Assembly: GCF_003171715.1 (NCBI RefSeq)
Contig: NZ_QGHL01000004.1
Span: 62,001-126,000 of the forward strand
Direction: 5' to 3'
Length of the DNA: 64,000 nucleotides
Source of the DNA: Novosphingobium meiothermophilum
GTDB lineage: Bacteria; Pseudomonadota; Alphaproteobacteria; Sphingomonadales; Sphingomonadaceae
The number at the start of each line of letters is the position of its first letter. Position 1 is the first letter of the stretch. Positions 28,727 through 55,640 of the stretch are shown piece by piece. The translations under genes were made by a program, and so were the position numbers. The notes under the pieces are model-generated. The model made no database searches. It saw only the letters and a program-made list of their open reading frames with translations, and was not told where the DNA came from.

Positions 28727-29028
28727 GGCCCCTCTGCGAACAATTTGGCAAAACATGCCTTGGCAGGAAAGTCATTGCACCGCAGATGGCCTCTCCACGC
28801 TTTGTGATGGCGCTTGATCCCGCTTGCCCATCACGAAGGCGGCCGATGCAAGCCACATCCCGATAAGCCCGCCTTCTTCAAGCAGGCCATCTGATGCCGA
28901 CGCGCCGGGAGGCCCGGATGCGTCGTGCTTCAGGCACCTTGTCCCAAGGTATAATTGGCGCGCGCACGCCGTGGGCGCACACTGCCTTCCAGATCTCAAC
29001 GACAATCCGTTTTTCTGGAGGAACGAGG
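28727..29028 (+). promoter_or_regulatory. Leader region of exaC with TATAAT candidate
   Basis: About 300 bp without a credible gene between the tRNA and the aldehyde dehydrogenase. A perfect TATAAT (28950-28955), unusual in such GC-rich DNA, is preceded by a weak -35 candidate around 28927 and would give a leader of roughly 65 bases ending in the strong TGGAGGA ribosome site. The rest shows nothing notable. Confidence 0.4.
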
Positions 29029-30549
29029 ATGTTGCAGCAGGCCCTCAGCAAGTTCGCAGGCGCGTCGCTGATCCGCGACAGGTTCGACAATTTCATCGGC
29101 GGCAAATGGGTCGCCCCGGTGCGCGGCGCCTATTTCGACAACGTATCGCCCGTGACCGGGCAGGTCGTGTGCCAGGTGGCGCGCGGCACGGCGGAGGACA
29201 TCGAACTGGCGCTTGATGCCGCCCACGCTGCCAAGGATGCGTGGGGACGCACCTCTTCCACCGAACGTTCGAACATCCTCCTGCGCATTGCCGACCGGAT
29301 GGAGGCGAATCTCGATCTGCTGGCCATGGTCGAGACGATCGACAACGGCAAGCCGATCCGCGAGACGACCGCGGCGGACATTCCGCTGGCGATCGACCAT
29401 TTCCGCTATTTTGCGGCCTGCGTGCGTGCGCAGGAAGGCTCCATCGCGGAAATCGATCACGATACCGTTGCCTATCACTTCCACGAACCGCTGGGCGTCG
29501 TCGGCCAGATCATCCCGTGGAACTTCCCGATTCTGATGGCAGCCTGGAAGCTGGCTCCGGCGCTCGCCGCAGGCAACTGCGTCGTGCTCAAGCCTGCCGA
29601 ACAGACCCCGATGTCGATCCTAGTTCTGGCCGAGCTGATTGCCGATCTCCTGCCGGAAGGCGTGCTCAACGTCGTCAACGGCTTCGGTCTTGAGGCAGGC
29701 AAGCCGCTGGCCACCAGCAAGCGGATCGCCAAGATCGCGTTCACCGGCGAAACCTCGACCGGCCGCCTCATCATGCAGTATGCTTCGGAGAACCTGATCC
29801 CGTGCACGCTCGAACTGGGCGGGAAAAGCCCGAACATCTTCTTTGCCGACGTGATGGCCGAGGAAGATGACTTCCTCGACAAGGCGCTGGAAGGCTTCAC
29901 CATGTTCGCGCTCAATCAGGGCGAGGTCTGCACCTGCCCCAGCCGAGCGCTGGTGCATGAATCGATCTATGACCGCTTCATCGAAAAGGCAGTGGCGCGC
30001 GTCGAGGCGATCAAGCTGGGCAGCCCGCTCGATCCGGCAACGATGATCGGTGCCCAGGCATCTTCCGAACAGATGGAGAAGATCCTTGGCTATATCCAGA
30101 TTGGCCGCGACGAAGGCGCCAAGGTTCTGACCGGCGGCGGCCGCGCGGCGCACAACGGCGATCTGGCGCAGGGCTATTACGTGCAGCCCACCGTGCTTGA
30201 AGGGCACAACAAGATGCGCGTGTTTCAGGAGGAAATCTTCGGCCCGGTGCTTGCGGTCACGAAGTTCTCAACCGACGAGGAAGCGCTCGCCATCGCCAAC
30301 GACACGCTTTACGGCCTCGGTGCGGGCGTATGGACGCGCGATGGAACCCGCGCCTATCGCATCGGCCGCGGCATTCAGGCCGGCCGCGTCTGGACCAACT
30401 GCTACCATGCCTATCCCGCCCACGCGGCGTTCGGCGGCTACAAGCAGTCGGGCATCGGGCGTGAAACCCACAAGATGATGCTTGACCATTATCAGCAGAC
30501 CAAGAATCTGCTGGTCAGCTACAGCCCGAAGAAGCTCGGCTTCTTCTGA
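29029..30549 (+). CDS. exaC: NAD-dependent (acet)aldehyde dehydrogenase, ExaC type
   Basis: Cytoplasmic aldehyde dehydrogenase of 506 residues, the exact class length of ExaC/AldB. Conserved parts: [30 protein letters not shown], the general-base ELGGKSPNI and the nucleophile in [11 protein letters not shown]. In pseudomonads ExaC oxidises the acetaldehyde formed by the periplasmic PQQ ethanol dehydrogenase; such a dehydrogenase lies 5 kb downstream here. GGAGGAACG before the ATG fixes the start. An EthD-family gene follows. Confidence 0.92.
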
Positions 30550-31124: not shown

Positions 31125-32342
31125 ATGGCAGCGAAAGGCGCTCTGGAAAGGGCAGAAGCGGCAGACGGATGCGGTGCGTTCGCGCAGGCGCAATCGGGCG
31201 TTGTTGCGTGCACATCACATGCCGATAATCCGGCTGCGGCAGTTGCCGAACTGGCTGAACAGCTTGAGGCTCAGCTTGGAGAGCGACAGCTGGCAGGCGC
31301 GCTCTTGTTCTGCTCCAACACCTATCCGCGCGATGCGCTGGAAACCGCGCTCCTCCACCGCCTGCCGGACGTGCCGCTGTTCGGCTGCACCAGCGCGGGC
31401 GAACTTACCGAGCGTGGTTATGATACCCGCAGCGTGGTGCTGATCGGCTTTCCGCAAGGCCCCTTTTCGATGGCTTCGGTGCGGTTCGACGATCTCGACC
31501 GGTTCGACCCCGCTTCCGCACAGGCCGCCATCCGCCAGCTGGTCGCGCAGGAGCGGCGTGGACGGGTTGCCGCGGCCCCTGCGGACCGGGCTTCGCATCA
31601 GGTGGCCCTGTTCTTCGTCGACGGGCTTTCCCACCGCGAAGAATTGCTGACCATGACCGCGCAGCACGCGCTGGGCGACATCCAGCTTATCGGTGGGTCA
31701 AGTGGCGACGGTCTTTCCTTCCGCGATACCGCGATCCTTCACGAAGGGCGCTTCCATGCCGATGCCGCCGTGGTCGTGCTGCTGACCAGCGAGCGGCCGC
31801 TGCATGTGTTCTGCAAGAGCTTCTACCGCCCCGGCCCCGCCAAGATGGTGATAACCGAAGCCGATGCCCAGGCGCGTATCGTTCACGAGATCAACGCCGC
31901 ACCGGCAGCAGAAGAATACCGCAGGCTTGCCGGAAGCCCGCTTGCGACACTCGATGCGCAGTTCTTCGCCGCCTATCCGCCAATCGTGCGCACGGGAGGA
32001 CAATGCCATGTCCGTTCGATCCAGACCGCCAATGACGACGGCTCGCTGACCTTCTACTGCGCCATCGATACCGGCGTGGTCCTGTCCATCGGCGAACCCG
32101 TGGACCGCGTGGCCGCGCTTGATGATCTGTTTGCCGAAATCGGCGCGAGCGTGGGCGAGATCGATCATGTCATCGGCTTCGACTGCGTGCTCAACCGGCT
32201 CGACGCCGAGGACCGCCAGCAGGCCGGGGCCGTATCGCGCCGCTATGTTGCCAACCGGGTCTTCGGTTTCAACACCTATGGCGAGCAGTTCCGCGCCGCT
32301 CATATGAACCAGACCTTCACTGGGCTGGCGATCGGACGATGA
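31125..32342 (+). CDS. FIST domain sensor protein
   Basis: A 405-residue soluble protein with FIST_N (about 30-235; LLFCSNTYPRDALE, LFGCTSAGEL, FFVDGLSHREE, IGGSSGDG) and FIST_C (about 240-390; CHVRSIQTAND, GFNTYGEQFRAAHMNQTFTGLAIGR). FIST modules are thought to bind small ligands and to feed signal transduction. Its stop overlaps the start of the hybrid kinase by four bases (ATGA), so both proteins are made together, presumably as sensor and kinase of one pathway. In Pseudomonas aeruginosa a FIST gene likewise adjoins the kinase NahK/ErcS' near the exa genes. Confidence 0.9.
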   Translation: MAAKGALERAEAADGCGAFAQAQSGVVACTSHADNPAAAVAELAEQLEAQLGERQLAGALLFCSNTYPRDALETALLHRLPDVPLFGCTSAGELTERGYDTRSVVLIGFPQGPFSMASVRFDDLDRFDPASAQAAIRQLVAQERRGRVAAAPADRASHQVALFFVDGLSHREELLTMTAQHALGDIQLIGGSSGDGLSFRDTAILHEGRFHADAAVVVLLTSERPLHVFCKSFYRPGPAKMVITEADAQARIVHEINAAPAAEEYRRLAGSPLATLDAQFFAAYPPIVRTGGQCHVRSIQTANDDGSLTFYCAIDTGVVLSIGEPVDRVAALDDLFAEIGASVGEIDHVIGFDCVLNRLDAEDRQQAGAVSRRYVANRVFGFNTYGEQFRAAHMNQTFTGLAIGR

Positions 32343-34624
32343 GCGCGAACCTTTCCGCCCTCCTGCCTTCAGGCGGCATTCTCCCGCCCGCTCCGGTCGA
32401 GGGCGAAAGCGAGATTGCCCGCCTTCAGGCGCGCATCCGCCAGCTTGAGAAGATCAATGCCGCGCTGATGGACCGGGTGGAACGTTCGGTCGACATGGAA
32501 GGCGGCGCCTTCTCAATGTTCGAGACGGCCATTGCGCTCGAAACGGTGGTGCGTGACCGCACGATCGCACTTGAAACCACGATGGCCGAACTCAACCGCG
32601 TGATTGCCGAACTGGCAGCGGCAAACGAGGACGCAACCGCCGCGCGCGTGATGTTGCGCGATGCGATCGAATCGCTGGATGACGGCTTCGCGCTGTTCGA
32701 CGCGGAAGACCGCATGGTCCTGTGCAACCGGGCTTTCCTGCGCATTTTCCCGGAGTTTGCCGATATCGCCGGAAGCGCGCCGGAGTTCAGCGAACTGGCG
32801 AGCCGCCTTGCGCAGACCGGGGCCATGGCCGGATCGCAAAGCGCGCCCGAACGCTGGCTTGCCGAACGGGTGGAGCGGCATCGCCGCGCCGAGGGCGCGC
32901 ATGTTCAGGCACTCAGCGACGGGCGCTGGATCCAGATAAACGAAATCCGCACCAGCGATGGCGGGATCGTGGGCATCTATACCGATATCACCTCGGTCAA
33001 GGCCGAGGATGCCCGCCAGCGCGCGCTTGAACTGGCCGAACGCAACCTGGCGCTTCAGGCCACGCTCGATACGCTCTCCGAAGGCGTCTGCCTGTTCGAT
33101 GCGCAGCGCCGCATTCAGGCATGGAACGAGGGGCTGTTGCGGGTTCTTGGCCTTTCGGGAAGCAGCGCGGAGCTGCTCCGCCATGTCGACAGCCACGCCG
33201 CACTGATCGAATGGTGCACCTGGAAGCTGGGGCTGGAATGCCCCGATGCCCTGACGTGGCGCGAAGGCACGACAGCGCAGCTTTCCGCCGACTGCCTCAT
33301 GGCTGGGCGCAACTTCGTGATCCGTTCGGTTCCGCTGAACAATGGCGGGATGGTTTTCACCTTCGATGACGTGACCGACCATGTGCGCCTGCAACGGTCG
33401 CTGACCGAAACGGCAGAACTGCTGGAACGGCGCGTGCAGGAGCGCACCGCCGAACTGGTCGAGGTCAACCGGCAGCTCGTCGAAGCCAAGAACGAGGCCG
33501 AAACCGCCAATCGTTCCAAGACGAGCTTCCTTGCTGCGGCCAGCCACGATCTGCTCCAGCCGCTCAATGCCGCGCGCCTGTTCGTTTCCGCGATGGACGG
33601 TCTTGCCCTGCCCGAACGCCCGCGCGCGCTGGTGCAGCAGGCCAGCACGGCGCTCGATTCGGTCGAGGATCTGCTTGAAGCCCTGTTTGAAATCTCGCGG
33701 CTTGATGCAGGTGCGATCCAGCCCGAAGTGAGCGACCATGCCCTTGGCACAATCCTCAATGCGCTGCGGGTGGAGTTCGCCCCGCTCGCCGCAGCCGGTG
33801 GGCTGGCGTTCGATGTGCCCGAAACCGGCCTGTGGGTGCGTTCCGACGCGCGCCTGCTGCGCCGTGTTCTCCAGAACTTCGTGTCGAACGCCATCCGCTA
33901 TACCGAGGCAGGCAGCGTGAGGGTGGAAGTTTCGGAAGAGGCTGGCGCCGGTGGCCTTGGCGCAATGGTGCGCGTGACCGTGCGCGATACCGGCCCCGGC
34001 ATTGCCGAGGCCGACCGCGAGGAGATCTTCGCCGAGTTCCGCCGCGTGGGCAAGACGCAGAAGATTCCCGGCAAGGGGCTGGGACTTGCCATCGTGCGGC
34101 GCGTGTCCAGCATGCTGGGCCATGCCATCGAACTGGATACGGCACCGGGCGCGGGTGCGGCCTTCTCGATCGTGCTGCCAAGGGTGGCGCCTGTCATGCT
34201 GCCACCGGCACAGGCGCCGGTGGCCGCCGCCGCGGGCCGCATGGGTGGCATGGTGCTGGTGATCGACAACGATCCCGCCATCCTTGCAGGCATGGAGGCC
34301 CTGCTGGAAAACTGGGGTCTTGAAGTCGTGGTTGCGCGCGGCCCGGCCGATCCGGCAGCCCGTGCGGCACTGGCCCAAGGCCCGGCGCTGCTGATCGTGG
34401 ACTATCATCTGGATGACGGGCTGACGGGCGAGGAAGCGCTGGCCGATCTGCGCGCACGTGGCGCGGTGCAGCTTGGCGGTCGTGTCATTCCCGCCGTGTT
34501 CATCACCGCTGATCGCAGCGAGGAGACCAAGGCCCGCCTTGCCGCGCAATCGCTGCCGCTGCTGAACAAGCCGGTCAAGCCTGCCCAGCTTCGCGCTCTG
34601 CTGCGTCAACTCGACGTGCTGTGA
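32339..34624 (+). CDS. PAS-containing hybrid histidine kinase (NahK/ErcS'-like)
   Basis: A 761-residue cytoplasmic hybrid kinase without membrane segments. Order: coiled coil (about 20-105), PAS (about 107-225), second PAS-like part (about 236-360), coiled coil, HisKA with phosphoacceptor His403 in AASHDLLQPLNAARLF, HATPase (NFVSNAIRY, DTGPGI, GKGLGLAIVRR) and a C-terminal receiver with Asp688 in LLIVDYHLDDG. The HDLLQPLNAARLF box is characteristic of NahK/ErcS'-type kinases. It overlaps the FIST gene and converges with the LuxR regulator gene, its probable partner, only 25 bases away. Confidence 0.92.
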   Translation: MSANLSALLPSGGILPPAPVEGESEIARLQARIRQLEKINAALMDRVERSVDMEGGAFSMFETAIALETVVRDRTIALETTMAELNRVIAELAAANEDATAARVMLRDAIESLDDGFALFDAEDRMVLCNRAFLRIFPEFADIAGSAPEFSELASRLAQTGAMAGSQSAPERWLAERVERHRRAEGAHVQALSDGRWIQINEIRTSDGGIVGIYTDITSVKAEDARQRALELAERNLALQATLDTLSEGVCLFDAQRRIQAWNEGLLRVLGLSGSSAELLRHVDSHAALIEWCTWKLGLECPDALTWREGTTAQLSADCLMAGRNFVIRSVPLNNGGMVFTFDDVTDHVRLQRSLTETAELLERRVQERTAELVEVNRQLVEAKNEAETANRSKTSFLAAASHDLLQPLNAARLFVSAMDGLALPERPRALVQQASTALDSVEDLLEALFEISRLDAGAIQPEVSDHALGTILNALRVEFAPLAAAGGLAFDVPETGLWVRSDARLLRRVLQNFVSNAIRYTEAGSVRVEVSEEAGAGGLGAMVRVTVRDTGPGIAEADREEIFAEFRRVGKTQKIPGKGLGLAIVRRVSSMLGHAIELDTAPGAGAAFSIVLPRVAPVMLPPAQAPVAAAAGRMGGMVLVIDNDPAILAGMEALLENWGLEVVVARGPADPAARAALAQGPALLIVDYHLDDGLTGEEALADLRARGAVQLGGRVIPAVFITADRSEETKARLAAQSLPLLNKPVKPAQLRALLRQLDVL

Positions 34625-34649: not shown

Positions 34650-35300
34650 CTATCCCCTGAAGCCCACCTTGCCTGCCATGATGACGGCCTGCGTGCGCGA
34701 GAACACGTTCATCTTCTGGAGAATGGCCGATACGTGCGCCTTGATCGTGGTCATCGAAACGTCCAGTTCATAGGCGATCTGCTTGTTGAGGCGGCCTGCA
34801 ACCAGATGGCCCAGCACCACCCGCTGTTGCGGCGTCAGGCTTTCGATACGGCTGCGAATGAGGTCTTCCTCGGCCGCGGCGGAATCATCGCCTTCAAGTT
34901 CGGGCATGTAGATTTCGCCCGAAAGCACTTGCCCCAGTGCCTCGACGATTGCCGCCCGCTTGAGGCTTTTGGGCACAAAGCCCGCCGCACCTGCCGCCAG
35001 AGCATCGCGCACCACCTTGCGGTCGGTCACGCCCGAAACCATCACCACCGGGGTTGCTGGAAAGGCATCGCGCAGGGCTTCAAGCCCGGAAAGATGCGCC
35101 ACATCGGGGATGTTGAGATCCAGCAGCACAAGATCGACGTCGCCTGCTTCGGCCAGCACGGCCAGTGCCGATTCAAGGCTGTCGGCCTCAAGAATGGTGC
35201 AATCGGGAAAGGTATCGTCGAAGATCGAACGCAGGCCATCGCGCACCAGCGAATGATCGTCGACGATCAGGACGCGTTCGGGAACGATGCTTTGCGGCAT
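34650..35300 (-). CDS. LuxR/NarL-type response regulator (ErbR/AgmR-like)
   Basis: Receiver with VLIVDDHS and phosphoacceptor Asp61, then a C-terminal LuxR helix-turn-helix (LTPQQRVVLGHLVAGRLNKQIAYELDVSMTTIKAHV). This is the type that controls quinoprotein ethanol oxidation in pseudomonads (ErbR/AgmR). Two starts have ribosome sites: ATG 35300 (GAGGAG, 216 residues, chosen because it starts at the receiver) and ATG 35372 (AGGA, 24 residues longer). It lies directly behind the PQQ dehydrogenase on the same strand, with a hairpin between them. Confidence 0.88.
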   Translation of the reverse strand: MPQSIVPERVLIVDDHSLVRDGLRSIFDDTFPDCTILEADSLESALAVLAEAGDVDLVLLDLNIPDVAHLSGLEALRDAFPATPVVMVSGVTDRKVVRDALAAGAAGFVPKSLKRAAIVEALGQVLSGEIYMPELEGDDSAAAEEDLIRSRIESLTPQQRVVLGHLVAGRLNKQIAYELDVSMTTIKAHVSAILQKMNVFSRTQAVIMAGKVGFRG

Positions 35301-35399
35301 GAGGCTCCTCGCGGTCTGTCCGCCGTCCGGTGCGGTCAGTCCGGCCGGATGCGGCGCGGTGGCGGTCTTCATAGTTATCCTAACCGGGGAGGTCGAGGA

Positions 35400-35442: not shown

Positions 35443-37200
35443 TTACTGCCGTGGCAGCTTGAACACCCAGAGCATTCCGCCCTGACTGATTTCCTTGAAG
35501 GTCTTGGCCACTTCGCCGCCCCAGAGCGGCACCGCGCCGCCCCAGCCCGACATCACGGCCACATACTGTTCGCCGTCCTGTTCCCATGTGACCGGCGATC
35601 CGACCACGCCCGATCCGGTCTGGAACTGCCACAGTTCCTCGCCGGTCTTGGCATTGAATGCCTTGAGATAGCCTTCGGGCGTGCCGGTGAAGACCAGATT
35701 GCCGCGCGTGGCAAGAACCCCACCCCACAGCGGCGCCTTGTTCCGGTATTCCCACACGATCTTGCCCGTGGCCGGGTCCATCGCGCGCAGTGCGCCGATA
35801 TGGTCTTCGGCGATCGGCTTGATGGTGAAGCCCGCCCCCAGATAGGCAGCGCCCTTCTTGTAGGCGATGGGTTCGTTCCAGATGTCCATGCCCCAGTCGT
35901 TCGAAGGCACATAGAAAAGGCCAGTGTCCTGCGAATAGGCCATCGGCATCCAGTTCTTGCCGCCAAGGAACGACGGCGATGCAAAGACCGACTTGCCCTT
36001 GCCATCGGCGGTGGGAGCGCCAGGGCGGTTTTCGGGCACATAGTTCGGGCGGCCCGTCTTCAGATCGATGCCATTGGCCCAGGTGGTCTGCATCACGAAC
36101 TTGTGAGCACCCACGAGCTTGCCGTTGGTGCGGTCAAGCACATAGAAATAGCCGTTGCGGTCAGCCTTGGCGCCCAGCTTCATGGGCTTGTCCTTGCCAT
36201 TGACCTTGATCGTGGCGTCAAAGGGGATGAACTCGTTCACCCCGTCAAAGTCCCAGCCATCATGCGGGGTGGTCTGGTAGTGCCACTTGATGACGCCCGT
36301 ATCGGCATCGATCGCAAGGGTCGAAGCGGAATAGAGGTTGTCGCCGGGGCGCAGGTGGCTGTTCCACGGTCCCGGATTGCCGGTGCCGAAATAGACAAGG
36401 TTGGTGCCCGGATCATAGGTGCCGCCAAGCCACGTGGCGCCGCCGCCGGTCTTCCACAGATCGCCGGTCCAGCTCGCATTGAGCTTGCCGGTCATGCCGT
36501 TAGGCTGGCCGTTGAGCGTGCCGATATGGCCTTCGATCACCGGGCGTTCCCAGATCAGTTCGCCGGTTTCGACATTGCGCGCCTGCACGGCGCCCACAAT
36601 GCCGAACTCGCCGCCGGAATTGCCGGTTATGACCATGTCCTTGACGATGAGCGGCGCGGCAGTAGCCGAATAGCCTGCCTGATAGTCGCCGGTCTTCTTG
36701 TTCCAGATCACCTTGCCGGTGTGCCGGTCAAGCGCGACAAGCCGCGCGTCGAGCGTCGCGAAGATCACCTTGTCGCCGTGGATCGCCGCGCCGCGGTTGA
36801 CCACGTCGCAGCAGGGCATGATGCCGTCGGGCAGGCGGGCGTTGTATTCCCACTTCTTCTCGCCCGTGCGCGCATCGAACGCAAAGAGACGCGAATACGA
36901 CCCGGTGACATAGATCGTGCCGTCATAGACCAGCGGCTGCGACTCCTGCCCGCGCTGCTTTTCACCGCCCAGCGATGCCGCAAAGACCGGCACCAGCTTC
37001 TTCACGTTCTGCGTGTTCAGCTTGTCGAGCGTGCTGAAGCGCTGCTGCCACGGGCCCATGCCGTAGCTGATGACATCGCCGGGCGTTGCCGCATCATTGA
37101 GAATGTCCGCACTGGTCGGTCCGCCGGCAATGGCCGGGGCAGCGACCAGACTGGTGGCTGCCGCCAGCCCCGCGATAAAATTGGAGATACGCCGCTTCAT
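35443..37200 (-). CDS. exaA: PQQ-dependent alcohol dehydrogenase, lanthanide-type active site
   Basis: Periplasmic quinoprotein alcohol dehydrogenase, 585 residues with a signal peptide (about 1-25, ending APAIAG). It forms an eight-bladed propeller of W-motifs. Active-site features: the vicinal disulphide Cys130-Cys131 (MPCCDV), Glu198 in GGEFG and Asn275 in GTGNPGPWN as metal ligands, and the catalytic Asp317 followed by Asp319 in GWDFDG. The extra aspartate two residues on is the known mark of lanthanide-dependent enzymes (XoxF, ExaF, PedH); calcium enzymes have a small residue there. AGGAGGGACAGG precedes the ATG. Electrons probably go to the PedF-type cytochrome encoded upstream. Confidence 0.93.
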
Positions 37201-37522: not shown

Positions 37523-38404
37523 TCAGCCCTGCGCGGCAAGCGCAGGCCGCCAGGCGACCCCCTGCTGCGCAAACAGGGCGGCCATGCGCCCATCGGCAAT
37601 CATCCGGCTGATCTGCGCATCCAGCGCAAAGCCCAGCGTGCGGGAGTTCTCCTTCACCGCAATGCCGATATCCCAGCCTGCGGACATCATCTGCGGCAAG
37701 GCGCCTTTGCGCACCTTTATGCCAGCACCGGGATAGTCGTGGACAACCGCCTCGATCTGCGCGCTTGTCGCAACCACGAAATCGGCGCTGCCGTCGGCAA
37801 CGCTGGCCGCTGCGGCATAGCCGCTCGGCAGATGGACGAGATCCTTCGCCAGCGCTCCGCCTGCATGTCCGAGCAGGTAGAAGTCAGGGATGGATGCCAG
37901 TTCGGCCGCCACCTTCCGCCCCCTGAATGCGGCGGGCGAAGCTTCGCAATTGCCGCCATCGCGCGCGCAGGCCGCACCGAAGGTCTCGCGATAATAAGGG
38001 GCAAGGAACACGACATTGTTCTCACGCTGCATCAGCACCCGGTCAAAGGGCACATGCAGCATCACGTCGCAAGGCTGGAAGCCCAGCAGTCCGCCGCGCC
38101 AGACAACGTTGCGCAGATCGTCGGAAATATCCTCGTCCGCCGGGAAAAGCTGGATGTCGGCCCGCACGCCCAGCGCTTCGGCAAGCGCGCGGGCGATTTC
38201 GGCATCAATTCCCAGCGGCCTTCCGCCTGGTGTATCGGACCACGACCACGGTCGGTTGTCGGCGTAAAGACCGACCCGCAAGACCCCCAGATCCCTGACC
38301 TTTTCCAGCGGTGCCGCAACAAGCCGCGAAGGCGCGAGCGCGCTCATCACGGCCGCAGCGCCAATCCGGGCAAGCAGATCGCGACGTCTGAAGCCCTGCC
38401 GCAC
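37523..38404 (-). CDS. Quinoprotein-dehydrogenase-associated periplasmic binding protein
   Basis: A 293-residue family-3 solute-binding protein of the kind found beside PQQ alcohol dehydrogenases (XoxJ/PedG-like). It has a twin-arginine-like RRRDLL near the N-terminus and a hydrophobic signal (to about residue 27), then LRVGLYADNRPWSW, GIDAEIARALAEALGV and paired periplasmic-binding lobes. No transporter subunits are nearby, fitting the view that such proteins help mature or activate the dehydrogenase rather than transport. Start GTG at 38404, with GGAAG before it, two bases after the pedF stop. Confidence 0.85.
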   Translation of the reverse strand: MRQGFRRRDLLARIGAAAVMSALAPSRLVAAPLEKVRDLGVLRVGLYADNRPWSWSDTPGGRPLGIDAEIARALAEALGVRADIQLFPADEDISDDLRNVVWRGGLLGFQPCDVMLHVPFDRVLMQRENNVVFLAPYYRETFGAACARDGGNCEASPAAFRGRKVAAELASIPDFYLLGHAGGALAKDLVHLPSGYAAAASVADGSADFVVATSAQIEAVVHDYPGAGIKVRKGALPQMMSAGWDIGIAVKENSRTLGFALDAQISRMIADGRMAALFAQQGVAWRPALAAQG

Positions 38405-38406
38405 GA

Positions 38407-38850
38407 TCAGTCTTCCGTATGCTTCGTCTCGATCCAGCTCCGGATCGCCCAGCCCGCCTTCTGGCCCAGCACTTCGCCGAAGGGCGGCATATAGACCTTT
38501 CCATCGTGGCTGGATCCGTGGCGGAAGCGTTCGACGAACCATTCATCGCCCGCATCGCCAAGTTCAAGATAGCGCAGATCCGGTGCAATCCCGCCGGAAA
38601 TGGCATCCAGCCCATGACAGCGCGCGCAGTTCTGGCCATAAGCGGACTGGCCGATTTCGATCGCTTTTTCATTGCCGCGATAGGGGTTTACGGCAGTCCA
38701 GTTATCGTTTCCGCCCTCAATATCGGGCAGGGCGGACGTGTCCACCGCCTGAGGCGTGACATCACCATGGGCCGAAAGGCGGGTGGCAATGCTGGCCGAT
38801 GCCAGCGCCGCCGCAGCAAGCAGGGCCGCGCGGCCGTAGGAAATGGTCAT
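38407..38850 (-). CDS. pedF: Cytochrome c-550, PedF type
   Basis: A 147-residue periplasmic monoheme cytochrome: signal peptide (about 1-27), heme-attachment CARCH (about 75-79), and the axial methionine in VYMPPFG. Such cytochromes take electrons from PQQ alcohol dehydrogenases. The tail IETKHTED ends two bases before the start of the binding-protein gene, so the two are one operon. It is divergent from the beta-propeller gene across a 198-bp shared promoter region (38851-39048) that shows no clear operator. Confidence 0.88.
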   Translation of the reverse strand: MTISYGRAALLAAAALASASIATRLSAHGDVTPQAVDTSALPDIEGGNDNWTAVNPYRGNEKAIEIGQSAYGQNCARCHGLDAISGGIAPDLRYLELGDAGDEWFVERFRHGSSHDGKVYMPPFGEVLGQKAGWAIRSWIETKHTED

Positions 38851-39048
38851 GGCTCAAACATCCTCTGCGACAAGTGCTCATTTTGGCCGGTCGGCAACGC
38901 GGATTCGCATTCCGCCTGCGCCATGCCCGCCCTTCCTTTCACACCCCGCGCTGCGCCCATATTGGACAATGGTATTAGGCCAAGGTGCCATACCGCAATG
39001 GCCGTGCCGGGTTTATGCTGGCCGGCGACAAGCTTGTGGAGAGGCACC

Positions 39049-40071
39049 ATGAAACCAACCCGACGCCCGGCGCGCATCGCATGGCAGCGTCGCACGGCCA
39101 CATTGCTGGGCGCAATGCTCACAGCCGTGATTGCCGCGGCCACGGCGGCAACGGCGCAGACGGTCTATGTCAGCAACGAGCGCGGCAACACCGTGACCGT
39201 GATCGATCTGGGCGCGGACGGCGGCAACGGGCGCGCGGTGGCGCAGTGGGCGGTGGGCAAGCGGCCGCGCGGCATCACCCTGACCCGCGATGGTGCCACA
39301 CTGCTGGTAGCCGCCAGCGCCGACAACGCTGTCGAGATGCGCAATCCTGCCAATGGCGCGCTGGTTGCCACGCTGCCTTCGGGGGCAGATCCCGAACAGT
39401 TCTTTGCATCATACGATGGCAGCCTGCTGTTCGCGGCAAACGAGGACAACGCTGCCGTGACCGCGATCGATCTGAAGACCCGGCGCGTTGCCTGGCAGGT
39501 GCCCGTGGGCGACGAGCCGGAAGGTGTGGCGCAAAGCCCCGATGGCAAGTGGCTCCTCGTCACGAGCGAGGAGGATAATACCGTCGCGTGGATCGATCTG
39601 GCCACGCGCGCCGTGGTTCACGAGACCGAAACCGATGCCCGTCCGCGCCATGTCGAGTTCACCGCTGATGGCGCGCAGGTCTGGGTGGCGGCGGAAATGG
39701 CGGGCACAGTGCATGTTGTCGATGTGGCCACGCGCGAGGTGGTGGACACCATCCACTTCGCCCCGCCGGGGATTCCCGATTACAAGGTGATGCCCTGCGG
39801 CATCCGCTTCACGCCCGATGGACGCACCGCGATTGTCGCACTCGGCCGGGCCGATGCGGTGGCCTTCGTCGATGTGCAGAGCCGCAGGATCAGTGGCTAC
39901 GTGCCCGTGGGCGAACGGCCGTGGCATCTGGCGATCCTTCCTGATGGCAGCCGCGCCGTCGTCGCCAACGGGGCAAGCGATACGGTTTCCGTGATCGACA
40001 TTGCCACACGCCGGGTTGTCGGCACCATTGCGGCGGGCGCAGGACCTTGGGGCGTTGCCATAGGCAAATGA
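39049..40071 (+). CDS. PQQ-catabolism-associated YVTN beta-propeller protein
   Basis: A 340-residue exported protein: signal peptide (about 1-36, ending ATAATAQ) and seven YVTN-type blades, seen as repeats like VYVSNERGNTVTVIDL, LLVAASADNAVEMRN, LLFAANEDNAAVTAIDL, LLVTSEEDNTVAWIDL and AVVANGASDTVSVIDI. It belongs to the beta-propeller family found near PQQ-dependent dehydrogenases; its role is not known. GGAGAGG precedes the ATG. A longer open frame upstream is antisense to pedF. Confidence 0.87.
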   Translation: MKPTRRPARIAWQRRTATLLGAMLTAVIAAATAATAQTVYVSNERGNTVTVIDLGADGGNGRAVAQWAVGKRPRGITLTRDGATLLVAASADNAVEMRNPANGALVATLPSGADPEQFFASYDGSLLFAANEDNAAVTAIDLKTRRVAWQVPVGDEPEGVAQSPDGKWLLVTSEEDNTVAWIDLATRAVVHETETDARPRHVEFTADGAQVWVAAEMAGTVHVVDVATREVVDTIHFAPPGIPDYKVMPCGIRFTPDGRTAIVALGRADAVAFVDVQSRRISGYVPVGERPWHLAILPDGSRAVVANGASDTVSVIDIATRRVVGTIAAGAGPWGVAIGK

Positions 40072-40232
40072 CCGGTCAACGCCCGGCAAGACACCGCAAC
40101 CAGATGCCAAGAATGCACTGCGTCTCATCCCAAAGTCCAAGGCCATAAGTCCAATATCGCGCGGCGATGCTGCGCAGCATTGTTTCCCCCAGTCGCAGGA
40201 TAACCGACACGCCTTTCACGGAGGGGAACATC

Positions 40233-41669
40233 ATGAAGATCACCAGGGCGCTTTGCGCCTCGGCCGCACTGGGTGCCATCGCCCTTGCGGCATCGCCCGC
40301 CCATGCCGGAACGCCCGAACTCTTGAAGCGCCTGCACGAGAAGGGAATCCTGACCGACGAGGAATACCAGGAACTGCTGGCCGAGGAGGCGCGGCCTTCG
40401 CCCGCCCCTGCTGCTCCGGCGTCTGCCGCCGCACCTGCGGGCGATGCCACCGCGCGCGCGCAGGCCGCTATCGATACCACCCGCCTTGTCCGCACGACCG
40501 AAAGCGGCATCGGACTTGAAGTCGGCCCGGCCACGATCACCTTCTCCGGTTCGGTCAACGGCTTCTACGTCCACGATAATCCCGATACGCCATCGGCGCG
40601 CACCGCGGTGGTGGGCGGCATTGCCAATGTTGGCAGCAACAATTCCAGCGCGGTGCGCAATGGTCTGCTGCCCGGCTTTCTCAAGATCGCGGTCAGCACC
40701 AATCAGGGCGGCTGGGACGTGGGCGCGACGTTCGGCATGTATCCGGGCATCAACTCCACTGCATGGGGCGCACTGGGCGCGAACAACGGAGGCCAGCCCA
40801 CGGCGCTTGCCACCGCTGGCATCGATTTTCGCCAGACCTTCCTGACTTTCGGCAAGCCTGAGATCGGCACCTTCAAGATCGGGCGCGATATCGGCCTGTT
40901 CGGGTCCGAGGCGATCCTGAACGACATCACGCTGCTGTCTTCGGGTTCGCCGGGAAGCAATGTCGCGCCGGGCAATACCACGCTGGGCCGCATCGGATCG
41001 GGCTATATCTACACCGATTTCCAACCGCAGATCACCTATACCTCGCCCGTGTTCAGCGGATTTCAGGCCTCTGTCGGCGTGTTCCAGCCGCTGTCCTCGC
41101 TCACCGGGCCTGCGGAAAGCAACTCCGCGCCGGGGTTCCAGGGCAAGCTCACCTATGATGGCAAGTTCGGCGATGTTGCCACCCGCCTGTGGGTTTCGGG
41201 CATCACGCAGAAGCATGATCTGGCAGCAGGCGGCAGCTTCACCGGACAGGGGCTGGATGTGGGCGGCAAGGTCACGGTCGGCCCGCTGACCGCGCTCGGC
41301 TACTACTACACCGCCACCGGCCTTGGCACCACGGTCTTCGGCCTGTTCGATACCGGCCTTGCCCAGAATGGCACCGGCATTTCCCGCCGCAAGAGCGAGG
41401 GCTTCTATGCGCAGGCCTTGGCCACCTTCGGCAAGTTCTCGATCGGCGGCAGCTATGGTGAAAGCCGCCTCGATCATGCCAGCATGGCCGACCGGCTTGC
41501 CAATCCGAACCTTGTCAGGGTCAATTCCAGCTACGTCGGTCAGGTGCGCTACGGGCTGACCTCGTGGGTCACGCTGATCGGGGAATATGTCCGCTCCAAG
41601 GCGGTTGCCCATTCCGGCAACAGCGCGCAGAGCGACGCGGTTGCACTGGGCGGCATCCTCTTCTTCTGA
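40233..41669 (+). CDS. Porin
   Basis: A 478-residue outer-membrane porin: signal peptide (about 1-25, ending SPAHAG), a short helical segment (TPELLKRLHEKGILTDEEYQELLAEE), an Ala/Pro linker, then a beta-barrel ending in GGILFF with the C-terminal phenylalanine needed for barrel assembly. GGAGGGGAA before the ATG fixes the start. Its place in the PQQ cluster suggests entry of alcohols or other small solutes, but specificity is not visible. Confidence 0.85.
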   Translation: MKITRALCASAALGAIALAASPAHAGTPELLKRLHEKGILTDEEYQELLAEEARPSPAPAAPASAAAPAGDATARAQAAIDTTRLVRTTESGIGLEVGPATITFSGSVNGFYVHDNPDTPSARTAVVGGIANVGSNNSSAVRNGLLPGFLKIAVSTNQGGWDVGATFGMYPGINSTAWGALGANNGGQPTALATAGIDFRQTFLTFGKPEIGTFKIGRDIGLFGSEAILNDITLLSSGSPGSNVAPGNTTLGRIGSGYIYTDFQPQITYTSPVFSGFQASVGVFQPLSSLTGPAESNSAPGFQGKLTYDGKFGDVATRLWVSGITQKHDLAAGGSFTGQGLDVGGKVTVGPLTALGYYYTATGLGTTVFGLFDTGLAQNGTGISRRKSEGFYAQALATFGKFSIGGSYGESRLDHASMADRLANPNLVRVNSSYVGQVRYGLTSWVTLIGEYVRSKAVAHSGNSAQSDAVALGGILFF

Positions 41670-41780: not shown

Positions 41781-43832
41781 ATGGATGACATGTTCTTTCG
41801 CACCGGCGCTATCCTTGCCGGAGTCTTCGCCCTTTCCCTTGGCGCCCTGCCGGCGATCGCGCAGGAAGCCCCCGCAGATGACGATGCCGCCGAACGCGTT
41901 CGCGCCGAGCAGATCGTTGTCACCGGCAACGGCCTTGGCGAAACGCCCGGAACGCCTGCCTATGCCGCCGTCACGCTGGGGCGCGATGCGCTGCTGCGCG
42001 CGGCATCGGGCCGAATCGAGGATGTGCTGACCAACGTTGCGGGATTTCAGCAGTTCCGCCGGTCGGACAGCCGCTCGTCCAATCCTTCGGCGCAGGGCGT
42101 CACCCTGCGGGCGCTGGGCGGCAATGCCACCAGCCGCGCGCTGGTGCTGCTAGATGGTGTGCCGATGGTCGATCCGTTCTTCGGCTATGTGCCGCTTTCC
42201 GCGCTTGCCCCCGATACGCTGGGCGCGGTGCGAGTGACACGCGGCGGCGGCTCCGGGCCGTTTGGCGCGGGCGCGCTTTCGGGAACGATCGAGCTGGAAA
42301 GCGCCGGACCGGATGCGTTGGGGCGTGTATCGGCACAATTGCTCGCCAGCCAGCGCGGCGAAACCGAGGCGAGCGGCGCAATCGTGCCGCGTCTGGGCCA
42401 GGGCTTTGTCGTGGTTTCGGGCCGCTGGGACCGGGGCAAGGGCTTTTTCACCACTCCGCCTGCGCAGCGCGTCCCGGCAACGGTGCGCGCCGCATACGAA
42501 TCATGGTCCACTGCGGTGCGCGCGGTCGCGCCGATCGCGCCTGATGTGGAACTGCAAAGCCGCATCGCCGTCTATCGCGACAACCGGGTGCTGCGCTTTG
42601 CCGGCGCCGATACCTCAACCGAAGGTGAGGATGCCAGCCTGCGTCTGGTGGGCCGTGGGGCTTGGCAGTTCGATGCGCTGGCCTATTTCCAGGCACGGGA
42701 CTTTTCCAACGTGGTTGTGTCGGCGGCCACGTTCCGCCCCACCCTCGATCAGTTCGCCACCCCCGCGCAGGGTATCGGCGGCAAGCTTGAAGTGCGCCCG
42801 CCGCTGGGCGAAAGCAATGTCTTGCGGCTTGGCGCAGACTGGCGGCGGCTGAGCGGGACGATGCGCGAAACCGCATTCAACGCCAACACCGGCGCCATCA
42901 CCGCCCGCCGCACCGCAGGCGGCGTGAACAGCGATTTCGGTCTCTATGCCGAAAACGACATGACGCTGGGACGGATCGTGCTGACAGGCGGCCTGCGCGC
43001 CGACCGCACGGTGATTGCCGATGGCTATTTCGAAGTGCGCAATGCGGCGGGCACCGTCACCAGCCGCAGCGACTATGCCCGGCAGGCGGACTGGACGCTG
43101 ACATGGCGCGGCGGGGCGCTGTGGCGGGCAAGCCCGGTGGTCGCGCTGCGCGCTGCGGCCTACACCGGCCTGCGCCAGCCCACGCTCAATGAACTTTACC
43201 GCCCCTTCACCGTCTTTCCCGTCACCACGCAGGCCAATGCGGCGCTGCGCAACGAACGGCAAAAGGGCTTCGAAGCAGGCATCGACCTTACCCCTGCCGA
43301 GGGCTTTGCGCTTTCGCTGACAGGGTTTGATAACCGGATCGAAAACGCGATCGCCAACGTCACCATTGGCACGAACCTGCGCCAGCGCCGCAACGTCGAC
43401 GAGATCCGCGCCCACGGGATCGAAGCAACGGCCAGCGCCAGTGTGGGCATCGCGCGTTTCGATGGTTCGCTCGCTTGGACCGATGCCGAACTGCGCAACG
43501 GTGCGGCCTCGCCGCTTACCGGAAAGCGCCCGGCCCAGACCCCGCGCATCGCTGCATCGGGCACGCTTACGCTGACGCCTGCACCAGGCTGGCAGATTGC
43601 CGCAACGCTGCGCCATGTCGGGCAGCAATATGAGGACGATCTCCAGATCGACAGTCTGAAGGCGGCCACCACGCTCGATCTGTTCGCGCAGGTGCCGCTG
43701 GGCGGCGGGGCCAGCTTGGTCCTGCGCGGCGAAAACCTGTTCGATACCGAAATCGTCACGCGCAACTCGGGCGGTTCGATCGACCTTGGCGTGCCGCGCA
43801 CTGTCTGGGCCGGGCTGCGTTTCACGATGTGA
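41781..43832 (+). CDS. TonB-dependent receptor (BtuB-like size)
   Basis: A 683-residue receptor: signal peptide (about 1-27, ending PAIAQ), TonB box in AEQIVVTGNG, plug with ALVLLDGVPMVDPFFGY and VRVTRGGGSGPFGAGALSG, then a barrel ending GLRFTM. It is smaller than the siderophore receptors and near the size of vitamin or metal-complex receptors. Translation may start at ATG 41781 or 41790; neither has a strong ribosome site. A second receptor gene follows after 21 bases, so both are probably one operon. Confidence 0.9.
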   Translation: MDDMFFRTGAILAGVFALSLGALPAIAQEAPADDDAAERVRAEQIVVTGNGLGETPGTPAYAAVTLGRDALLRAASGRIEDVLTNVAGFQQFRRSDSRSSNPSAQGVTLRALGGNATSRALVLLDGVPMVDPFFGYVPLSALAPDTLGAVRVTRGGGSGPFGAGALSGTIELESAGPDALGRVSAQLLASQRGETEASGAIVPRLGQGFVVVSGRWDRGKGFFTTPPAQRVPATVRAAYESWSTAVRAVAPIAPDVELQSRIAVYRDNRVLRFAGADTSTEGEDASLRLVGRGAWQFDALAYFQARDFSNVVVSAATFRPTLDQFATPAQGIGGKLEVRPPLGESNVLRLGADWRRLSGTMRETAFNANTGAITARRTAGGVNSDFGLYAENDMTLGRIVLTGGLRADRTVIADGYFEVRNAAGTVTSRSDYARQADWTLTWRGGALWRASPVVALRAAAYTGLRQPTLNELYRPFTVFPVTTQANAALRNERQKGFEAGIDLTPAEGFALSLTGFDNRIENAIANVTIGTNLRQRRNVDEIRAHGIEATASASVGIARFDGSLAWTDAELRNGAASPLTGKRPAQTPRIAASGTLTLTPAPGWQIAATLRHVGQQYEDDLQIDSLKAATTLDLFAQVPLGGGASLVLRGENLFDTEIVTRNSGGSIDLGVPRTVWAGLRFTM

Positions 43833-43853: not shown

Positions 43854-46181
43854 ATGACGCGCCATCTTCTCGTCCTCTTCCTCCTGACAGCAGCGCCTGT
43901 TCCGGCACTGGCCACATCCGATGATCCTGATGCCCTGACCGCCGATGGCGCAGCGCGCGGCGGTAGCGACGCGCAGATCGTGGTCAGCGCACCGGGCGGG
44001 CTGATCGATACCGACGAGGCGCGCGGGCTGGATCGCGCCGCGCTCGATGCGTCGGGCCGGCCTGATCTGGGCCGCGCGCTGGAACGGGCGATTCCCGGTC
44101 TGACCCTGGCCGAGGCGGCCGGCAACCCGTGGCAGGCGCAGATCCTGTGGCGCGGCTTTTCGGCCAGTGCCTTGCAGGGCGCGGAACAGGGCATGGCGGT
44201 CTATCTCGATGGTGTGCGCTTCAACCAGCCGTTCGGCGATGTGGTGCTGCTCGATCTTGTGCCCGATACCGTTCTGGTGCGCGCGCAGGTGAACGATGCC
44301 AACCCCGTTCTGGGCCGCAATGCACTGGCTGGCACGCTCCTGCTCCAGACGGGCGATGGCGCATCGCTCGCAGGTCTGAGCGCCTTGGCCGATGCTGACA
44401 GCACCGGCATGGCAGGCGGCGCGTTCAGCTTTGGCACAGGCACGCAGACACGCAATCTGCTGGTCGCCGCCGAAGCGCGACGCGATGCGGGCTGGCGCGT
44501 GGCCAGCCCCTCTCAGCTCTACCGCGCCTTCGCCAAGGGGGTGCATACCGGCGCAGGATGGGGGATTGAACTGTCCGCCCTTGGCGCGGCAAGCGAGCTG
44601 ACCGGCAACGGCGTTTCGCCGGTGGAACTGCTGGATGCGCAATATTCGGCCGTGTTCACCCGGCCCGATACCACCAGCACCCGCTTTGCGCGCATTGTGG
44701 CCGCGCCGTGGGTGCAAACCGGACAGTCGGGGCGGATCGAACTGCGCGCCCACTACCAGCATCTGCGCCGCAGCAATGCCAATGGCGATCTTGCCGATTT
44801 CGGCCCGTGCGATGATGCGCCCGGCCTGCTCTGCGTGGGCGAAGAGGACGATGGCTATGAGGACCGCCTGCTTTCCGGCGGCGCTTTCGTGCCATTCGAT
44901 CCGGCTGGCGATGATCCGGCGGTATTCAACCGGGGGCAGGAACGCACCGATGCGCTGGGCGCGATGCTGCAATGGCTTGATGAGCGCGAGACCGCCATTG
45001 GAACGCGGCGTATCGCGCTGGGCGTGGCATGGGAACATGCCCGCACCCGTTTTCGCGCCTCGACCGAACTGGGCGAACTGGAAGAAGATCGTTCGGTCGA
45101 ACCGCTCGGCCTGCTGCTCGCCTCAGAGGAGGGCGCGATCCAGCCGGTCGACCTCGTCTCGAAGGTTGATGATCTGGCGGTTTTTGCCAGCGTCGAACTT
45201 CCGCTCATGCGCGGTTTTTCGGTCGAGGCCGGGGCGCGCTTCTCGCATAACCGGGTGCGCATGGACGACCGGCTGGGAACCGCGCTTGACGGGGATCATA
45301 CCTTCAACCGGTTCAACCCTTCGATCGAGTTCGACTATGCACTGGCTCCCGGCATCAAGGCGGCGGCGGGCTTCTCGCTCACCAGCCGCAACCCGACCCC
45401 TGCCGAACTGAGCTGCGCCGATCCCGATGCTCCCTGCACGCTGGCCAATTTCTTCATTGCCGATCCCCCCCTGAAGCAGGTGACAGCGCGCAACTGGCAC
45501 CTGGGTCTTTCCGGCGCCGCCGATGGCGATGCCGCGGCTGCGCAAACGCTGGCATGGCGGCTCAACGCCTGGCGCACCGATACGCGCGATGACATCCGCA
45601 TGATCGCCTCGCAGATCCGGGGACGCGCCTATTTTGCCAATCTTGGTCAGACCCGGCGGCAGGGAATCGAAGCCTCGCTCGACTGGAACCGCGATGGCTG
45701 GCGTGCCAGCCTTGTCTATGGGTTCACCGATGCGCGCTTTCGCGATGGTTTCGTCATGTCCAGCCCCGCCAATCCGGCCGCAGACGATGCGGGAGAGATT
45801 ACGGTGCGGCCGGGAGACCGGCTGCCCGCAGTGCCGCGCCACGCGCTCAACCTGCGCCTTGGCCGTGATGCGCGCACGTGGAGCGCAGGGCTGACCATGC
45901 GTGCGCGTTCGGGCCAGTTCCTTGCGGGCGATGATGGCAACGACAATCCGCGCACGCCCGCCTATGTGGTGTTCGATCTTGATGGAGCGCTACGCCTCAC
46001 GCCGCGCCTCAGCCTTGTGGCGCAGGTGCGCAACCTGCTGAACCGGCGCTACGCAACCTTCGGCACCTTCGCCGAAATCGACGATATCGCACTGGCCGAA
46101 GCGCCTGGCGCCGAAAATCCGCGCGCCTATGCCCCCGGCGCGCCCCGGCGCATCAGCGTATCCCTGCGCACGCAGTTCTGA
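43854..46181 (+). CDS. TonB-dependent receptor with acidic, cysteine-bracketed loops
   Basis: A 775-residue receptor: signal peptide (about 1-20), TonB box AQIVVSAPGG, plug with QILWRGFSASALQG, GMAVYLDGVRFNQPFGD and NPVLGRNALAGTL, barrel ending SLRTQF. Two presumed surface loops hold cysteine pairs: Cys319/Cys327 followed by an acidic GEEDDGYED run, and Cys521/Cys528 around ADPDAP. Acidic loops could attract cations or their chelates. AGGAGC precedes the ATG. It forms a pair with the receptor in front, next to the PQQ cluster and a two-component system. Confidence 0.9.
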   Translation: MTRHLLVLFLLTAAPVPALATSDDPDALTADGAARGGSDAQIVVSAPGGLIDTDEARGLDRAALDASGRPDLGRALERAIPGLTLAEAAGNPWQAQILWRGFSASALQGAEQGMAVYLDGVRFNQPFGDVVLLDLVPDTVLVRAQVNDANPVLGRNALAGTLLLQTGDGASLAGLSALADADSTGMAGGAFSFGTGTQTRNLLVAAEARRDAGWRVASPSQLYRAFAKGVHTGAGWGIELSALGAASELTGNGVSPVELLDAQYSAVFTRPDTTSTRFARIVAAPWVQTGQSGRIELRAHYQHLRRSNANGDLADFGPCDDAPGLLCVGEEDDGYEDRLLSGGAFVPFDPAGDDPAVFNRGQERTDALGAMLQWLDERETAIGTRRIALGVAWEHARTRFRASTELGELEEDRSVEPLGLLLASEEGAIQPVDLVSKVDDLAVFASVELPLMRGFSVEAGARFSHNRVRMDDRLGTALDGDHTFNRFNPSIEFDYALAPGIKAAAGFSLTSRNPTPAELSCADPDAPCTLANFFIADPPLKQVTARNWHLGLSGAADGDAAAAQTLAWRLNAWRTDTRDDIRMIASQIRGRAYFANLGQTRRQGIEASLDWNRDGWRASLVYGFTDARFRDGFVMSSPANPAADDAGEITVRPGDRLPAVPRHALNLRLGRDARTWSAGLTMRARSGQFLAGDDGNDNPRTPAYVVFDLDGALRLTPRLSLVAQVRNLLNRRYATFGTFAEIDDIALAEAPGAENPRAYAPGAPRRISVSLRTQF

Positions 46182-46485: not shown

Positions 46486-47115
46486 ATGCAGGTGCTGATT
46501 TGCGATGACCATCCCATTGTCGCATCGGCTATGGGCATGACGGTCGAAGCCGCGTTCGACGCGCAGGTTCACATCGCCCATTCCTGTAGCGATGCCCTGG
46601 ATCGGGTGCGCCGTCTAGGCACTGTGGACTTGCTTCTGCTGGACCTTCATATCCCCGGCGAAGACCCACGCGAAAACCTCCGGTCTGTGCGAGCGGCCTG
46701 CCCGCAAACGCGGGTCGTGGTCTTTTCCGGCAGCGAAAACCCGGATCACCTGCGCATGGCGCTTGAAATGGACGTGCATGGCTTTCTCCCCAAGTCTTCA
46801 CGCCCTGAAGTCGTAGAGGCGGCCCTGCGACTGGTTCTGGCCGGAGGGCGCTATCTGCCCGATGCCGTGCGTAATCTGGCGCTGGAGACAGCGGTCCATG
46901 CGCCCACCGCCCCTGCCGTTGAAAGCTGCCTGACACAGCGCCAGTTGCAGGTCCTGCACCTTCTGGCCAATGGCAGCGCGAACAAGCTTATTGCAAGGGA
47001 ACTAGGCATTTCGCCCTTCACGGCGAAGGCCCATGTCGCGCAGGTCCTGTCGGCATTGGGCGCGGTCAACCGCACCGAAGCGGTTGCCATAGCGCGCGGG
47101 CGCGGCCTGCTTTGA
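46486..47115 (+). CDS. LuxR/NarL-type response regulator
   Basis: A 209-residue regulator: receiver (VLICDDHPIVASAM, phosphoacceptor Asp53 in LLLLDLHIPG, switch lysine in FLPKSS) and LuxR helix-turn-helix (LTQRQLQVLHLLANGSANKLIARELGIS). The following hybrid kinase starts inside its stop codon, so the two are a co-translated pair. It is only distantly like the regulator at 34650. By position it may control the two TonB receptors or the PQQ genes; this is inference. Confidence 0.9.
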   Translation: MQVLICDDHPIVASAMGMTVEAAFDAQVHIAHSCSDALDRVRRLGTVDLLLLDLHIPGEDPRENLRSVRAACPQTRVVVFSGSENPDHLRMALEMDVHGFLPKSSRPEVVEAALRLVLAGGRYLPDAVRNLALETAVHAPTAPAVESCLTQRQLQVLHLLANGSANKLIARELGISPFTAKAHVAQVLSALGAVNRTEAVAIARGRGLL

Positions 47116-55639: not shown

Positions 55640-55640
55640 C

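Follow-up and report, generated by a model that had tools for sequence, protein, structure and literature searches.

The window, which is the whole 64,000-nucleotide stretch of Novosphingobium meiothermophilum DNA analyzed here, carries on its minus strand a gene that a sequence-only reading had described as a PQQ alcohol dehydrogenase with a lanthanide signature. The gene is surrounded by a cluster of alcohol oxidation, sensory, and transport genes. The features of this cluster are listed below, together with the codons of the putative metal site; counts of loci refer to Sphingomonadales loci of at least 19 kb, of which 46 were hand-picked from 80 relatives and 44 were kept after two shorter ones had been dropped, with identity thresholds set by us.

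28894–30549, plus strand: acetaldehyde dehydrogenase ExaC, the next step of ethanol oxidation (NF050026, 942 bits, cut-off 900; 36/44 loci)
31125–32342, plus strand: NosP-related protein, kin of an NO sensor (397 bits, below the cut-off of 450; 41/44 loci)
32339–34624, plus strand: NahK/ErcS'-type (PedS1) hybrid histidine kinase (near_NosP_CTERM, 373 bits, below the cut-off of 400; 41/44 loci)
34650–35372, minus strand: LuxR-type response regulator, ErdR/PedR1-like (best model ErdR, 163 bits, below the cut-off of 390; 44/44 loci)
35443–37200, minus strand: pedH ortholog, heme-less PQQ ethanol-type dehydrogenase of 585 aa (TIGR03075, alignment)
36244–36252, minus strand: D-x-D metal motif, codons of D317-F318-D319 (both Asp residues invariant in 80/80 relatives)
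36376–36378, minus strand: codon of N275, metal ligand by homology (alignment; invariant in 80/80)
36607–36609, minus strand: codon of E198, metal ligand by homology (alignment; invariant in 80/80)
36808–36813, minus strand: codons of the vicinal C130-C131 (invariant in 80/80)
37523–38542, minus strand: periplasmic binding protein in the PedG/XoxJ position (PF00497; relative in 44/44 loci)
38407–38850, minus strand: cytochrome c-550 PedF, the expected electron acceptor (TIGR04494, 207 bits, cut-off 122; 44/44 loci)
38419–40071, plus strand: PQQ-catabolism beta-propeller protein, YncE-like (TIGR03866, 342 bits, cut-off 287; 44/44 loci)
40167–41669, plus strand: porin-like protein (annotated gene at the same place in Novosphingobium ES2-1; 40/44 loci)
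41781–43832, plus strand: TonB-dependent receptor 1 (profile match; relative in 285/298 genomes at E≤1e-80)
43854–46181, plus strand: TonB-dependent receptor 2, candidate lanthanide receptor (profile, fold, co-occurrence, neighbours)
46486–47115, plus strand: second LuxR-type response regulator, behind the receptors (profile scan)
47112–48839, plus strand: second histidine kinase, with N-terminal hydrophobic segments seen by eye (profile scan)

The reading frame at 35443–37200 is open, and its product is a PQQ alcohol dehydrogenase, in agreement with the earlier description, and PedH-like by alignment. TIGR03075 matches the protein with 778 bits (cut-off 480), and its best solved matches are 6ZCW (857 bits), 6ZCV (856 bits), the ExaA structure 1FLG (699 bits), and the XoxF structure 6DAM (399 bits). 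Identity to 6ZCW extends over 366 of 551 aligned residues (66%). According to a figure legend in PMC10409515, 6ZCW is PedH of Pseudomonas putida KT2440, and the D-x-D, Glu, Asn, and Cys-Cys elements are common to the two enzymes. The product is devoid of the CxxCH heme motif; the sequence aggaggg lies upstream of the ATG, and inspection by eye shows a Sec-like signal peptide. The XoxF identity was rejected, as the score of 6DAM is less than half of that of PedH. By sequence comparison, the gene is a PedH ortholog, placed with PedH rather than with ExaA or XoxF, and the enzyme itself is ordinary for its kind, one more on a known list. Its nearest named relatives come from Novosphingobium, Croceicoccus, and Sphingobium, and the Sphingomonadales setting proposed previously was right.

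The residue numbering given in the sequence-only reading (C130, C131, E198, N275, D317, and D319) is correct in the translation. The Glu198 and Asn275 ligands and the vicinal Cys130-Cys131 pair are intact, and the second Asp of GWDFDG, D319, stands two residues past the catalytic D317, forming the D-x-D motif. Its assignment to the metal site was checked by alignment, in which the 13-residue metal-site segment is identical, letter for letter, to those of 6ZCW and 6ZCV. The distinction drawn between calcium and lanthanide enzymes also holds for ExaA, PedE, PedH, and XoxF: the calcium enzyme ExaA (1FLG) reads NDAWDFSGNNE, with Ser opposite D319, and PedE has Ser where PedH has Asp (PMC5487730), while XoxF (6DAM) reads HDEWDYDGINE and possesses the second Asp as well. 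Each of the six site residues is invariant in 80/80 relatives (loci L007–L086), and the pattern P[HN]D[GS]WD[FY]DGVNE is present in all 80 loci; as the best 80 of 596 confirmed stretches in the named collection, these are close relatives by choice. Since the motif is shared by all of them, its occurrence by chance was rejected. Two of the loci (L060 and L064) each contain an additional second gene reading PNDTWDFSGNNE, which is the calcium form.

We take PedH to belong to PQQ-ADH type 2b. This type is among the enzymes in which the Asp was confirmed as essential, and the motif is treated as an indicator of lanthanide binding (PMC11996626); PedH itself was tried with rare-earth metals because of its second Asp and was described as lanthanide-dependent (PMC5487730). 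The link between this Asp and a lanthanide comes from these two published works and proves no metal use in the window enzyme. By orthology to PedH and the identical metal site, the window enzyme is predicted to be a lanthanide-dependent ethanol dehydrogenase. Thus, with residues and orthology as in the known PedH, the earlier observation is confirmed, and the need for a lanthanide is supported as a prediction.

The cluster resembles the ped cluster of Pseudomonas, for which porin, NosP, pedS1, pedR1, pedF, and pedG are listed (PMC12997753); beside the window pedH lie genes for PedF, PedG-like, NosP-like, NahK/PedS1-like, and porin-like proteins, a LuxR regulator, and an aldehyde dehydrogenase. 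The first LuxR-type regulator, PedH, the binding protein, PedF, and the propeller protein were each found in all 44 Sphingomonadales loci. Receptor 1 occurs in 24 of these, receptor 2 in at least 15 (a lower bound, because in many cases it falls close to where the flank ends), and either receptor in 30. Some of the reading frames are longer than the genes they contain. The start of the binding-protein ORF overlaps pedF, and its true start is therefore probably further in; TIGR03866 matches from residue 239, so the propeller gene starts well inside its ORF; the NF050026 match to the ExaC ORF begins at residue 61. The porin-like ORF has no model match of its own and gave only a sub-threshold SHOCT match, and the profile and fold matches of receptor 1 are scattered among Cir, PhuR, PqqU, OprC, FhuA, and others.

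Plasmid p1 of Novosphingobium sp. ES2-1 has a closely similar cluster in its annotation, and the PedH encoded there is 92% identical to that of the window. Behind the plasmid cluster, the annotation lists quinoprotein relay genes together with a SoxYZ-like carrier, and these were not found within the window. In a scan of 20 ORFs from 28894 to 57515, none was named as PedS2/PedR2 or PedA1A2BC, though the regulator and kinase pair at 46486–48839 could be a counterpart. Unlike the P. putida PedH system, the host genome has no PedE-type, PqqC, or PqqE match, and the cluster includes two TonB receptors; PedE, the calcium partner in the PedE/PedH switch of Pseudomonas, was not found in this genome.

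Methylorubrum extorquens, which makes PQQ, carries a plasmid-borne homolog that is 68% identical to the window PedH ortholog. ExaF of this species, a lanthanide ethanol dehydrogenase, is flanked by PedF- and PedG-like genes (PMC12997753), and such neighbours are also found beside the window pedH; M. extorquens differs in that it also has XoxF (PMC7391723).

In the explanation that we propose, the PedH ortholog would be a periplasmic, heme-less PQQ dehydrogenase in which a lanthanide, bound at the metal site formed by E198, N275, D317, and the extra D319, activates PQQ. The enzyme would oxidize ethanol-like alcohols, its electrons would go to PedF, the cytochrome of the neighbouring gene, and ExaC would take over the aldehyde product. 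PQQ would be imported from outside and, less certainly, the lanthanide may be brought in by receptor 2. We have high confidence in the core of this explanation, namely a PedH ortholog with a lanthanide site that delivers the products of alcohol oxidation to PedF and ExaC and works with imported PQQ. The residues, the orthology, the cluster, and the lack of PedE-type, PqqC, and PqqE matches in the genome were observed directly; the lanthanide need, the substrates, the electron path, and the import of PQQ are inferred.

The host genome (3.47 Mb in 20 contigs, rated 100% complete) returned four matches to the PedH ortholog: the protein itself, one quinohemoprotein paralog at 44% identity, and two weak ones, of which one (L003) does not reach the cut-off of any PQQ model that it matches. 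No PedE-type gene was matched in this protein search. The capacity for PQQ synthesis was judged by two models, those for PqqC and PqqE. The PqqC model found nothing in the host genome, and the PqqE model matched only two proteins, both rejected: MoaA, with 50 bits, and BioB. By these two models, the host genome appears to fit PQQ auxotrophy, and its apparent inability to make PQQ suggests that the host probably scavenges both metal and cofactor from its surroundings.

Among 298 family genomes, PqqC and PqqE exceed their cut-offs in the same six, which indicates that the models work. The cases below the cut-off comprise two genomes with a weak PqqC and one with a partial PqqE, none of which carries PedH. 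A match to the window protein at E≤1e-150 was obtained in 22/298 genomes; one of them (G292) reads WDFSG, the calcium type, and was dropped, leaving 21 PedH carriers. The D-x-D motif was read in 20 of the 21 (the window itself, 17 others, G063, and G208), and for the remaining carrier, G281, the place of the match agrees in its contig coordinates with locus L034, where D-x-D is present. PedH of G208 is matched as two fragments that lie in different frames, and receptor 2 is matched only in part in this genome. PqqC is over the cut-off in only one PedH carrier (G009, L091), in which pqqC and pqqE lie about 8–9 kb from pedH on the same contig, and is not over it in the other 20. Across the 298 genomes there is no significant association of PedH with PqqC either way (p=0.36), as PqqC is rare throughout. 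The family is not devoid of PedE-like genes of the calcium type (WDFSG): they are present in G292 (L205) and, together with PedH, in G063 (L206).

A second sample was drawn from the genomes of the named loci, of which 79 could be searched; these were sorted by record title, overlap the 298, and include MAGs that are possibly incomplete. PqqC is over the cut-off in 22 of them: in 5/51 Sphingomonadales PedH carriers versus 17/23 others whose titles reach class level or lower (p=7e-8), and in 0/5 genomes titled only Proteobacteria, bacterium, or uncultured. Thus, 46/51 Sphingomonadales carriers are without PqqC over the cut-off, and PqqC was detected in more distantly related PedH carriers, Azospirillum and Thiothrix among them. 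Novosphingobium subterraneum DSM 12447 (locus L078) is a type strain that bears the cluster and gave no PqqC match. A type II quinohemoprotein relative (E≤1e-150) is encoded in 192/298 family genomes versus PqqC in 6/298, so that using PQQ without making it seems common in the family, and many of its members should be PQQ consumers with a receptor still to be named. In a study of 2025 (PMC12124388), PqqU was found in a single alphaproteobacterium, and the class was inferred to be mainly a PQQ producer, at least in the sampled environments. The present counts do not fit this inference as far as this family is concerned. Among the literature matches listed, none concerned sphingomonad PedH or sphingomonad PQQ auxotrophy. 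Older work exists on polyvinyl alcohol degraders requiring PQQ.

Relatives of receptor 2 (E≤1e-80) occur in 26/298 family genomes. Their distribution follows PedH, as they are present in 15/21 PedH carriers versus 11/277 other genomes (p=5e-14) and missing from six PedH carriers. The neighbourhoods were read in 15 of the 26 genomes, selected by us. Six of these regions contain ped-cluster genes (only the porin in L186), three contain another heme-less D-x-D dehydrogenase, and five (L192–L196) show no cluster gene beside receptor 2, two of them being from PedH carriers in which the receptor is unlinked; the region L187 is cut by a contig end. In G133, a genome that has both PqqC and PqqE, a receptor 2 relative lies about 1 kb from a gene whose best matches among solved structures are XoxF (916 and 897 bits versus 358–367 for PedH); behind this gene come those of a cytochrome and of a MoxJ/XoxJ-like protein. 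In G228 and G261, the enzyme located about 2.5 and 6 kb from the receptor relative reads HDYDA and is of the heme-less D-x-D kind. Two of the 11 receptor 2 genomes without PedH (G105 and G112) gave no match to the window protein at E≤1e-90.

Plasmid pMNOD02 of M. nodulans encodes a 32%-identical relative of receptor 2 (717 residues); a response regulator comes next, and lanmodulin after it. In Variovorax boronicumulans, a receptor 2 relative adjoins a PedH-like gene. Four further plasmid regions, from M. fujisawaense, Ideonella, Caballeronia, and A. vitis, have no annotated lanthanide gene near the receptor relative. The lanmodulin near the receptor 2 relative on pMNOD02 (L197:12107–12511), which is plasmid-borne, reaches 175.5 bits with its model (cut-off 135). 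A likeness is offered by LutH-LanM of the M. extorquens lut cluster, compared here by gene neighbours only, in which a TonB receptor is also tied to a lanthanide enzyme. In strain AM1, lutH is META1p1785 (PMC7391723) and lanM is META1_1786 (PMC9260416), numbers that are adjacent, much as the receptor 2 relative is near lanM on pMNOD02. The window differs in that a pattern search revealed no LanM-like EF-hand loop in it. The occurrence of relatives beside XoxF, PedH-like, or lanmodulin genes makes receptor 2 a candidate outer-membrane lanthanide receptor, and we consider it somewhat probable that it brings in the lanthanide. P. putida is described as lacking a LutH homolog, its outer-membrane lanthanide step being given as unresolved in that account (PMC12997753); receptor 2 provides a gene for testing this step in PedH bacteria.

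Since receptor 2 is nearest to PqqU by sequence and fold, it could also carry PQQ. It might then be the PQQ receptor of the lineage, a distant PqqU making up for the missing PQQ synthesis, which we regard as possible but rather doubtful. PqqU is the nearest solved receptor: the receptor 2 profile places it first among solved structures with 140 bits versus 67 for the next receptor, Foldseek with the predicted structure (mean pLDDT 82.9) also ranks it first (E 3e-41), and hhalign against it gives 99.8%. Moreover, in E. coli pqqU (yncD) adjoins the YncE propeller gene, and a propeller gene is likewise near receptor 2. VIA-align, however, results in a tie between PqqU (Z 36.6, rmsd 2.5, 607 aligned residues) and BtuB (Z 36.0, rmsd 2.6, 530 aligned residues). 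The published PqqU signature requires Y, F, or W at position 99 (PMC12124388), whereas in sequence alignment Y99 falls opposite Q108 of receptor 2, and the receptor family has 13 Q and 6 other residues there, none of the 19 being aromatic. In the same kind of alignment, PqqU R304 lies opposite R338 of receptor 2, at a position that is not conserved, and R365 falls in a gap. Receptor 2 also follows PedH rather than the need for PQQ, being present in 26 genomes as opposed to the 192 with a quinohemoprotein relative, and it is kept in 3/6 genomes that have PqqC (p=0.01). A lanthanide receptor with a PqqU-like fold is the reading that we prefer.

It is improbable that the host makes its own PQQ by diverged or unrecognised genes, rendering scavenging needless. 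Absent matches to two models are negative evidence only, and an alternative route, or a gap in the 20-contig assembly despite its completeness rating, could account for them; on the other hand, the two models succeed together in the same six family genomes, and PqqC is detected even in the distant Azospirillum and Thiothrix carriers of PedH. Quite unlikely, too, is a facultative enzyme that has D319 but uses calcium in vivo, with the lanthanide being optional. The motif is an imperfect switch, considering that a Ser-bearing PedE keeps 60–80% activity with 10 mM lanthanide added (PMC10409515). Membrane glucose dehydrogenase, another D-x-D enzyme, is predicted to be promiscuous toward metals (PMC11996626). 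Nevertheless, the window enzyme shares 66% identity and the same site with PedH, an enzyme described as lanthanide-dependent (PMC5487730), and the genome has no PedE-type match to share the work. An ordinary calcium quinoprotein of the ExaA/PedE kind, suggested by the common superfamily and the 699 bits to 1FLG, is contradicted by the alignment (WDFDG versus WDFSG of 1FLG, with Asp replacing Ser), by the clearly closer relation to PedH, and by the true PedE-type genes of the family (G292 and G063), which read WDFSG and are only 51–53% identical to the window protein, and is thus scarcely credible. A lanthanide-dependent PedH supplied with imported PQQ remains our preferred reading.

The quinohemoprotein paralog is located on another contig of the host genome (L108:6918–9062, contig C8). 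It belongs to the type II quinohemoprotein alcohol dehydrogenases, with 1KV9 as its best match (723 bits). It reads RWDFDS, with a D-x-D motif, while 1KV9, 8GY2, and 1YIQ have Thr at the second position (WDFTA, WDYTS, and WDYTA, respectively). D-x-D was found in 30/30 loci, comprising the paralog gene and 29 best-match relatives, one per genome. Among the 18 heme-bearing matches that were read, 5 have D-x-D, all already included in the 30, and 13 have Thr; as judged from these motifs, both types of quinohemoprotein coexist in the family. If the D-x-D quinohemoprotein were a lanthanide enzyme, the two clear PQQ alcohol dehydrogenases in the genome would each depend on a lanthanide. Because metal heterogeneity inside PQQ families has already been described (PMC11996626), we treat this protein as a lead and not as a claim of novelty. 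The paralog gene is flanked, as seen by eye, by an aldehyde dehydrogenase-like ORF and an AMP-ligase-like ORF.

The enzyme alone is one more lanthanide alcohol dehydrogenase, and its setting matters more. We tentatively suggest, as a wider picture that is plausible but less likely to be right than wrong, that PedH sphingomonads make no PQQ and scavenge both PQQ and lanthanide, from neighbours and minerals, with PQQ entering not by the published PqqU but by a different receptor, receptor 2 being a PqqU-fold lanthanide receptor of ped, xox, and lanmodulin loci, and the D-x-D quinohemoprotein serving as a second lanthanide enzyme. Double scavenging and receptor 2 are the more interesting parts of this picture, compared with the enzyme itself. 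If it is true, receptor 2 would supply the outer-membrane step for PedH bacteria, and it might even take up a PQQ-lanthanide complex.

Several sensory and metal-related genes of the window deserve mention. The regulator and kinase pair at 46486–48839, directly behind receptor 2, is a candidate sensor pair for alcohol or lanthanide. The NosP-like and NahK-like pair (31125–34624) is found near alcohol oxidation genes in 41/44 Sphingomonadales loci, as in Pseudomonas, and this placement may connect the sensing of nitric oxide with the PQQ-dependent oxidation of alcohols. Further along, at 51297–56783 on the minus strand, lies a CusA/CzcA-type heavy-metal RND efflux set consisting of an outer-membrane factor, a pump, and an adaptor, with a PmrA/QseB-like regulator at 56832 on the opposite strand.
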